Of a DNA stretch of 64,000 nt, positions 17,822 to 44,514 are shown in pieces. The position numbers and the translations under genes are program-made. The notes below the pieces were generated by a model that saw only the letters and a list, made by a program, of their open reading frames with translations, was not told where the DNA came from and ran no database searches. How positions within the stretch are numbered: position 1 is the stretch's first letter; each line of letters begins with the position of its first letter. Location of the stretch: assembly GCA_027489355.1 (NCBI GenBank), contig JAIXZY010000054.1:1-64000 (forward strand). The letters are read 5' to 3'. This stretch comes from Paracoccaceae bacterium. Its GTDB lineage: Bacteria > Pseudomonadota > Alphaproteobacteria > Rhodobacterales > Rhodobacteraceae.

Positions 17822-17869
17822 AAATTTCTTAAGGAAGAAATTTGACAAATTCCTTGCTTAAGGAATTTG
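17821..17869. repeat. Twin-hairpin repeat, family I, copy A
   Basis: Two perfect 10-bp stem-loops in tandem. 17821-17844 has stem CAAATTTCTT and loop AAGG. 17846-17869 has stem CAAATTCCTT and loop GCTT. One base separates them. It lies between the convergent degP and dnaE2-fragment genes. Related copies are at 44466-44514 and 56040-56087. Confidence 0.85.
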
Positions 17870-17879
17870 GGTCCCGGCC

Positions 17880-18284
17880 CTACGGCTGGTCCCCCGCCCT
17901 GACGCCGTCGAACTTGAACCCGGGGTCCAGAAGCCGGTCCAGCAGCGGCGACAGATCCTCGATCAGTTCGGCCACCACATGCACCACCCCCGCCTCGCGC
18001 TGCAGCTTGCCTGTCACCCGCAACAGCCGCCCCGCGATCACCGCCCGGCGGAAGCGTTCGTAGACATTGGCCCAGACCACGACATTGGCCGTCCCCGTCT
18101 CATCCTCGAGCGTGACGAAGATCACCCCCTTCGCCGTCCCCGGCCGCTGCCGCACCAGCACCAGCCCCGCCACCGTCACGCGCGCCCCGGCCGGAGGTTC
18201 GCCCAGCCGCGCGGCCTGCAAGGCCCGAGGCGGCCGCGGCCAAGGCGTGGCCCGCGAGGGAAGCGAGGGGGGCAAGGATGTCAT
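17880..18284 (-). CDS. DnaE2 (ImuC) C-terminal OB-fold fragment under a LexA box
   Basis: A 134-aa product. Residues about 35-120 match the C-terminal OB domain of the error-prone polymerase DnaE2/ImuC (VAGLVLVRQRPGTAKGV, TLEDETGTANVVVW, VTGKLQREAGVVHVVAE, DLSPLL). DnaE2 is normally above 1000 aa; no polymerase, PHP or finger motifs and no imuA/imuB lie nearby. The first 30 residues are unrelated and Pro/Arg-rich. The ATG at 18282-18284 lies 3 nt after a perfect LexA box and the frame is intact. It is either the remnant of a deleted imuA-imuB-dnaE2 cassette that kept its promoter, or a small stand-alone SOS protein. Confidence 0.7.
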   Translation of the reverse strand: MTSLPPSLPSRATPWPRPPRALQAARLGEPPAGARVTVAGLVLVRQRPGTAKGVIFVTLEDETGTANVVVWANVYERFRRAVIAGRLLRVTGKLQREAGVVHVVAELIEDLSPLLDRLLDPGFKFDGVRAGDQP

Positions 18285-18287
18285 GAA

Positions 18288-18302
18288 GAACAATACTAGA
18301 AC
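18288..18302 (-). promoter_or_regulatory. LexA (SOS) box GTTC-N7-GTTC
   Basis: Minus strand GTTCTAGTATTGTTC, an exact match to the alphaproteobacterial LexA operator. It covers the -10 hexamer of the promoter below and ends 3 nt before the ATG of the dnaE2 fragment, so repression and damage induction of that gene are expected. Confidence 0.8.
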
Positions 18303-18320
18303 ATCCGCGCCGGAAGGCAA
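18293..18320 (-). promoter_or_regulatory. SOS promoter of the dnaE2 fragment, probably leaderless
   Basis: Minus strand TTGCCT (18315-18320), 16-nt spacer, TAGTAT (18293-18298). Only 8 nt separate the -10 from the ATG at 18284, so the transcript would have a leader of 0-2 nt. No Shine-Dalgarno is present. Confidence 0.6.
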
Positions 18321-18380: not shown

Positions 18381-18725
<345 letters not shown>

Positions 18726-44465: not shown

Positions 44466-44514
44466 CAAATTTCTTGAGGAAGAAACTTGTCAAATCCCTT
44501 ACTTAAGGGATTTG
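44466..44514. repeat. Twin-hairpin repeat, family I, copy B
   Basis: Hairpin 1 at 44466-44489 (CAAATTTCTT, loop GAGG, one mismatch). Hairpin 2 at 44491-44514 (CAAATCCCTT, loop ACTT, perfect 10 bp). Spacing and loop size are identical to copies A and C. Confidence 0.85.

Follow-up and report, generated by a model that had tools for sequence, protein, structure and literature searches.

A stand-alone OB-domain gene opposite a ferredoxin gene

In silico analysis of 64,000 nucleotides of DNA from a Paracoccaceae bacterium (contig JAIXZY010000054.1, hereafter the window) established the presence on the minus strand of a small gene encoding an OB domain of the DnaE2 type, which is transcribed divergently from a 2Fe-2S ferredoxin gene (Table 1). 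An earlier note on this DNA had described an intact frame of 134 codons within a feature extending from 17880 to 18320; the frame was confirmed, from ATG to stop, and the stop end of the feature stands, while 18320 corresponds to an upstream in-frame TTG which is not a likely start.

Table 1. Features of the OB-domain gene and its surroundings, in positions of the window.
Feature	Position	Strand	Remarks
Stand-alone DnaE2 OB-domain gene	17880..18284	-	134 codons; ATG 18284-18282, stop 17882-17880
OB-fold core, residues 36-111	17952..18179	-	Pfam PF01336; AlphaFold2 model
WPRPP motif, N-terminal tail of OB protein	18228..18242	-	W-P-x-P-P pattern in 71/73 stand-alone proteins
LexA box GTTC-N7-GTTC, GTTCTAGTATTGTTC	18288..18302	-	Exact; 3 nt before OB-gene ATG
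-10 element TAGTAT	18293..18298	-	Within LexA box
-35 element TTGCCT	18315..18320	-	16-nt spacer to TAGTAT
Divergent 2Fe-2S ferredoxin gene	18402..18725	+	Pfam PF00111; conserved neighbour, not thought part of function

That the protein consists of the OB domain of DnaE2 alone, as had been proposed, was borne out by profile searches. The OB-fold family PF01336 matched over its cut-off at residues 36-111 (E 1.2e-13), and the top NCBIfam match was to the error-prone DNA polymerase model PRK05672 at its C-terminus (positions 942-1041 of 1047, E 4.8e-33), the 114 bits of this match lying under the model's full-length cut-off of 939. A weak profile match to residues 983-1073 of E. coli Pol III alpha was also observed (E 0.0069). 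An AlphaFold2 model based on a 54-sequence alignment had a mean pLDDT of 88.2, with strands and helices in the order of an OB fold, and was used in place of a model from a 12-sequence alignment (pLDDT 49.6), which was set aside. The best 50 rows of a Foldseek search with the former model, among them AspRS, LysRS, RPA and Stn1-Ten1, represent what we take to be OB-domain-holding proteins, the top TM-score by query length being 0.58, and Pol III alpha was absent among these 50 rows. RPA14/32 and Stn1-Ten1 are small OB-fold proteins which act in assemblies; their likeness to the present protein is that of a small OB fold, and homology beyond the fold is not claimed.

The 73 unique stand-alone OB proteins collected in this work measure 119-154 aa and keep the consensus of the fused OB domain, and the W-P-x-P-P pattern was found in 71 of them, the N-terminal tail that bears it being a candidate dock to DnaE2. 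A C-terminal SRDF[H/R] tail, which is given for about 77% of DnaE2 sequences in the sections of PMC3919608 considered here, was present in none of the 73 proteins and in none of the OB-less DnaE2 ends among those listed.

Paired AT-rich inverted repeats of the AAATTYCTTAAG type occur at window positions 17822-17868 and 44467-44513, one pair being located between the stop of the OB gene and a DegP-like gene; five matches of the AAATTYCTTAAG type with at most one mismatch were counted as compared to 0.03 expected.

LexA box and promoter

The exact LexA box reported by the earlier note, covering the TAGTAT of a TTGCCT-N16-TAGTAT promoter, was found as described. Four LexA-type boxes are present in the window as compared to 1.55 expected, a number of at least four being reached in 8 of 100 shuffles, and one such box in the window is little proof alone; the conservation of the box nevertheless exceeds chance. 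It was detected at 70 of the 75 unique stand-alone OB loci having flank, and the ferredoxin gene adjoins the OB gene at 73 of these 75. The counts derive from 79 loci with a box or a ferredoxin gene, which reduce to 73 unique loci (70 with the box and 73 with the ferredoxin gene), and the denominator further includes the OB loci L072 (stand-alone) and L074, which have neither; L048, which is situated at a contig end, stays outside the 75.

The spacing between box and ATG was likewise confirmed, and among the 70 box-bearing loci the start codon lies in-frame 1-3 nt past the box in 63, at a distance of 11-37 nt in six, and was not found in one. As a start codon 1-3 nt past the box leaves no space for a ribosome site, the message of the OB gene is probably leaderless or nearly so, and its transcript would begin with the ATG or immediately ahead of it, the -10 element being contained in the LexA box. 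The reading of the -35 and -10 elements is based on the aligned loci and the window sequence rather than on a promoter-scanning program: across the 70 aligned loci the first T, second T and G of the -35 TTG are kept at 93%, 57% and 84%, respectively, and the commonest letters of the -10 element are TAT.TT, inside the box. Expression of the OB gene is predicted to be repressed by LexA and inducible by DNA damage.

The remainder of DnaE2 and the imu genes

Two C-family polymerases were identified in the source genome (G000), DnaE1 on contig C7 and DnaE2 on contig C44, of which the latter aligns with full-length DnaE2 only as far as the OB boundary. As the OB query matched no second place in this genome at E <= 0.001, the window gene represents the piece that is missing from DnaE2, and the polymerase core and the OB domain, rather than being joined in the chain of the C44 DnaE2, are encoded at separate loci. 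The start codon of the C44 dnaE2 gene lies 18 nt past a LexA box of its own. The DnaE2 loci of other members of the genus end with LLRPxL[D/E]AA in 22 of 26 cases, the remaining four being cut by contig ends, and the catalytic aspartate motif PDxDxDF was retained at each of the 45 loci with an OB-less DnaE2, of which two or more are one genome counted twice, while the pattern for a second motif was matched at 32 of the 45. At L013:6840-6995 (G000:C44) the DnaE2 of the source genome itself has no stop after LLRPVLDA and is about 50 residues longer, still without an OB domain; these extra residues correspond to the sequence past the stop in relatives, and the other listed genus loci that reach a stop differ in this respect.

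The absence of imuA, imuB and the remainder of dnaE2 that the earlier note had stated holds for the window but not for the genome, in which imuB (G000:C35) and an imuA-like gene (G000:C19) are present in addition to the OB-less dnaE2. A search of the genome for a full imuA-imuB-dnaE2 cassette, as proposed there, recovered the genes but not one cassette, DnaE2 itself being without its OB domain. In four genomes of the genus (G000, G001, G005 and G010) imuA, imuB, dnaE2 and the OB gene occupy four separate loci with a LexA-type box beside each, and neither a contiguous nor a two-part imuA-imuB-dnaE2 cassette is present in these four. As a separate observation made by eye, a WPAPP stretch precedes the C-terminal part of the ImuB protein of the source genome (L156:1412-3085); it is similar to the WPxPP motif in the N-terminal tail of the OB protein, possibly by coincidence.

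Distribution of the split arrangement

Within the genus 28 of 32 genomes have an orthologue of the OB gene, encoded by a short frame of 113-325 aa. G007, where the split pair is missing, encodes two full-length DnaE2 proteins with an OB domain; G017 and G019 have neither the OB gene nor DnaE2; only fragments were obtained from G012 (81% complete), and G011 (59% complete) has the OB gene with no match for DnaE2. The G007 loci L154 and L155 represent two clusters of imuA-like, imuB and dnaE2 genes with a fused OB domain, the second imuA match being weak.

When full-length DnaE2 was used as the query, 21 of 25 genomes were seen to have a DnaE2 that stops near residue 980 of 1121 together with a separate OB locus, these 25 genomes being those reached via 26 of 80 named loci, with some already included in the genus or family sets under other labels. 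The 21 include Ruegeria, Leisingera, Roseivivax, Seohaeicola, Maritimibacter, Rhodovulum and Amaricoccus; of the other four, G035 has the OB gene without a DnaE2 match, G050 has the OB gene with fragments of DnaE2, and G053 and G054 have the fused form only.

At the level of the family, 160 genera were surveyed by one genome each, with the DnaE2 C-terminus and the OB protein as queries, and classed by hand. A first tally of 64 genera with both an OB-less DnaE2 and an OB gene, 4 with the OB-less DnaE2 only, 2 with the OB gene only and 90 with neither (Fisher p 4e-37, shared ancestry uncorrected) was amended by a closer search of eight genomes, which moved G208 and G139 to the split pairs. The resulting counts among the matches listed are 66, 3, 2 and 89; as co-occurrence tracks a single clade, the 160 genera do not count as independent. 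A separate OB gene is present in 68 of them among the matches listed. The 89 genera with neither include G109, which could not be classed among the matches listed; 12 of the 89 are without a listed match to the DnaE2 C-terminus, and the rest have the OB domain in one match or long frame with DnaE2.

The three genera with an OB-less DnaE2 and no OB gene are represented by G095, G115 and G199. The ferredoxin gene, too, was not found at E <= 1e-20 in G095 and G199, and the contig of G115 ends 222 nt past the ferredoxin start; the missing OB gene in these three genomes likely reflects assembly gaps. The sequence past the ferredoxin gene at the end of G115:C75 (L290) resembles, by eye, the start of a transposase gene, which may interrupt or hide an OB gene. 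For the two genera with the OB gene only, the DnaE2 piece of G112 is cut at a contig end, and G102 (7 contigs, 100% complete), in which the OB gene and ImuB were found and DnaE2 was not, looks like a real exception for which an independent role of the OB protein or a recent loss of DnaE2 is possible.

In a sample of 144 genomes of the class the OB query matched 72, with frames of less than 340 aa only in the family members G000 and G233, and with three further OB matches in frames of 343-639 aa (G268:C68, G264:C12 and G348:C3). Short OB frames were also seen at L097, L100 and L120, which belong to other lineages or to bins without placement. Matches for dnaE2 and the OB domain that abut each other were observed on plasmids of Dinoroseobacter, Sulfitobacter and Paracoccus. 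A Rhodobacteraceae-like locus with the OB and ferredoxin genes (L049) was found in CP059262.1, which is titled as an Exiguobacterium profundum MAG and is probably mislabelled.

Origin, selection and co-divergence

In the tree of OB domains all 72 stand-alone sequences form one clade against 45 fused ones (support 0.951), and in the tree of DnaE2, which was thinned to 101 tips, all 30 OB-less tips, defined by locus ranges and with the protein of the source genome counted twice, likewise form one clade (support 0.865). This suggests that the split is an old arrangement, shared by descent from a single event. G139 and G208 are sister to the other split lineages, on long branches; in both, the OB gene already lies opposite ferredoxin and is accompanied by a LexA-type box, but imuB is within about 1 kb of dnaE2; imuB is similarly near dnaE2 at L170 of Ruegeria marina. 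As these lineages keep imuB near dnaE2, the OB domain would have left first, with imuB being separated later in some lineages.

The earlier note had regarded the frame as undamaged, and this judgement was sustained both by its conservation in relatives and by the substitution rates. Over 91 pairs from 14 genomes of the genus the median dN/dS was 0.156 for the OB gene (range 0.084-0.230), as compared to 0.125 for the OB-less dnaE2 and 0.088 for ferredoxin, and in a wider set of 32 loci (496 pairs) the median for the OB gene was 0.179 with a largest value of 0.453. By these measures the OB gene is intact and under selection, and two outcomes that the earlier note had named as counter-evidence, a frame not conserved in relatives and a dN/dS near 1, were not obtained. 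Pairwise distances of the OB protein over 496 pairs from 32 genomes correlated with those of DnaE2 at 0.930 as compared to 0.754 for ferredoxin, with partial correlations of 0.829 and 0.039, respectively; this co-divergence with DnaE2 is support rather than proof, as the pairs are non-independent and ferredoxin is short and slow.

Proposed role of the detached OB domain

The split, the co-occurrence of its two parts, their co-divergence, the purifying selection and the LexA boxes are all evident at the level of sequence, and we consider it probable that they reflect a DnaE2 whose OB domain has become a detached subunit, produced under separate SOS control from a near-leaderless message, so that DnaE2 has probably acted in the form of two proteins ever since the old split. 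The C-terminal OB domain would, in an ancestor of some of the Rhodobacteraceae, have moved to a separate gene opposite ferredoxin with its own LexA-repressed promoter, dnaE2 having retained everything before the OB domain and now stopping there. Inactivation of LexA upon DNA damage would then derepress the OB protein and the truncated DnaE2, and in the genus also the separate ImuA and ImuB, at dispersed loci, whereupon the OB protein would join the truncated DnaE2/ImuB complex in trans and non-covalently, supplying the DNA-binding function, presumably for single-stranded DNA, of the normal C-terminal domain, and the proteins would act jointly in mutagenesis. In a published modelling study (PMC12926913) the regions of DnaE2 that ImuB contacts are the PHP and (HhH)2 parts; since these precede the OB domain, docking of ImuB could survive its loss. 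It is possible, if doubtful, that the OB protein further acts as a dose-setting switch, with truncated DnaE2 engaging DNA poorly until the OB protein docks, and with mutagenesis requiring coincident derepression of several dispersed SOS loci. Weighing against the subunit role are the genomes in which one half of the pair was found without the other (G102, G035 and G011, and G095, G115 and G199), the missing SRDF[H/R] tail of the stand-alone OB proteins, and the statement in PMC3919608 that DnaE3, which is a different group, might not depend critically on its OB domain and CTD.

A subunit role of this kind would fit the co-occurrence and co-divergence better than that of a competitor or modulator, namely an OB protein repurposed as a free SOS-induced single-stranded DNA-binding protein or modulator, for example of ImuB or of other polymerases, with a truncated DnaE2 that works OB-free. 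Such a repurposing would account for G102, with its OB gene and ImuB and no detected DnaE2, and is consistent with the conservation of the WPxPP tail in 71 of 73 proteins and with the existence of some other C-family polymerases without OB domains (PMC3919608, in the sections considered); we nevertheless regard it as unlikely, given that the OB protein co-diverges with DnaE2 beyond its neighbour, that co-occurrence is near-strict (66 genera with both and 5 discordant of 160) and that the stand-alone copies retain the fused-OB consensus. That the OB protein instead serves another polymerase during SOS, such as DnaE1, whose OB domain is homologous to that of DnaE2, seems very improbable: DnaE1 was matched in G007, G017, G019, G053 and G054, all of which are without the OB gene, so that the OB gene follows OB-less DnaE2 and not DnaE1, and NCBIfam groups the protein with DnaE2. 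The local deletion by which the earlier note had explained the layout, taken here as a chance fusion of the cassette promoter to a remaining dnaE2 tail that is now neutral, agrees with the layout of the single window but has a negligible chance of being correct, as the arrangement is old and shared across lineages with its box and neighbour conserved, a separate OB gene being present in 68 of the 160 genera, and as the dN/dS values over both the 91 genus pairs and the 496 wider pairs, together with this conservation, rule out a decaying remnant or pseudogene.

Relation to known systems

The detached-subunit arrangement proposed here has in common with the canonical ImuA-ImuB-DnaE2 system the domain sequence, the LexA boxes, the catalytic motif and the ImuA-like and ImuB genes, and it differs in that the OB domain is a separate gene whose product is without SRDF[H/R] and in that the genes of the cassette lie at four different loci in the four genus genomes considered. 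The DnaE of cyanobacteria is also split, its two halves being joined by a split intein, and is thus likewise a C-family polymerase encoded by two genes; here an intein-joined split was ruled out, as the new ends (OB proteins of 119-154 aa and DnaE2 ends of the LLRPxL[D/E]AA type) are too short for intein halves, and no splicing is expected. Split ImuB and stand-alone ImuB-C proteins have been described in other mutasomes, in the portions considered of PMC6511836 and PMC12926913, and are likewise a mutasome domain made as its own SOS-linked protein, but they concern a different domain and are mostly described as parts of operons, whereas in the present case the OB domain of the polymerase itself is encoded far from the polymerase gene. 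Several DnaE2 and DnaE3 sequences without an OB domain are noted in the sections considered of PMC3919608; these also end before the OB domain, and an OB domain in trans is unmentioned in those sections, whereas here it is kept as a gene. Among the many mutasome variants, split ImuB included, that are listed in the part of PMC12926913 available here, a DnaE2 with its OB domain in trans does not appear.

In the open-access PMC literature no description of a DnaE2 OB domain in trans was recognised among the matches listed, and a split DnaE2 with the OB domain as a separate gene is apparently an undescribed form. What the OB domain does in DnaE2 is, to our knowledge, poorly established, and a large bacterial lineage in which this domain stands apart from the polymerase offers a natural system where it can be removed, added or titrated with the catalytic subunit untouched. 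If the proposed reading is correct, DnaE2 proteins that are counted as lacking an OB domain may nevertheless function with one, and a short gene which is easily mistaken for a fragment would be a predicted mutagenesis factor. Fused and split DnaE2 were observed within one genome in two Rhodovulum assemblies, G041 (L157 and L183) and G044 (L158 and L182), which provide a natural comparison of the two forms.
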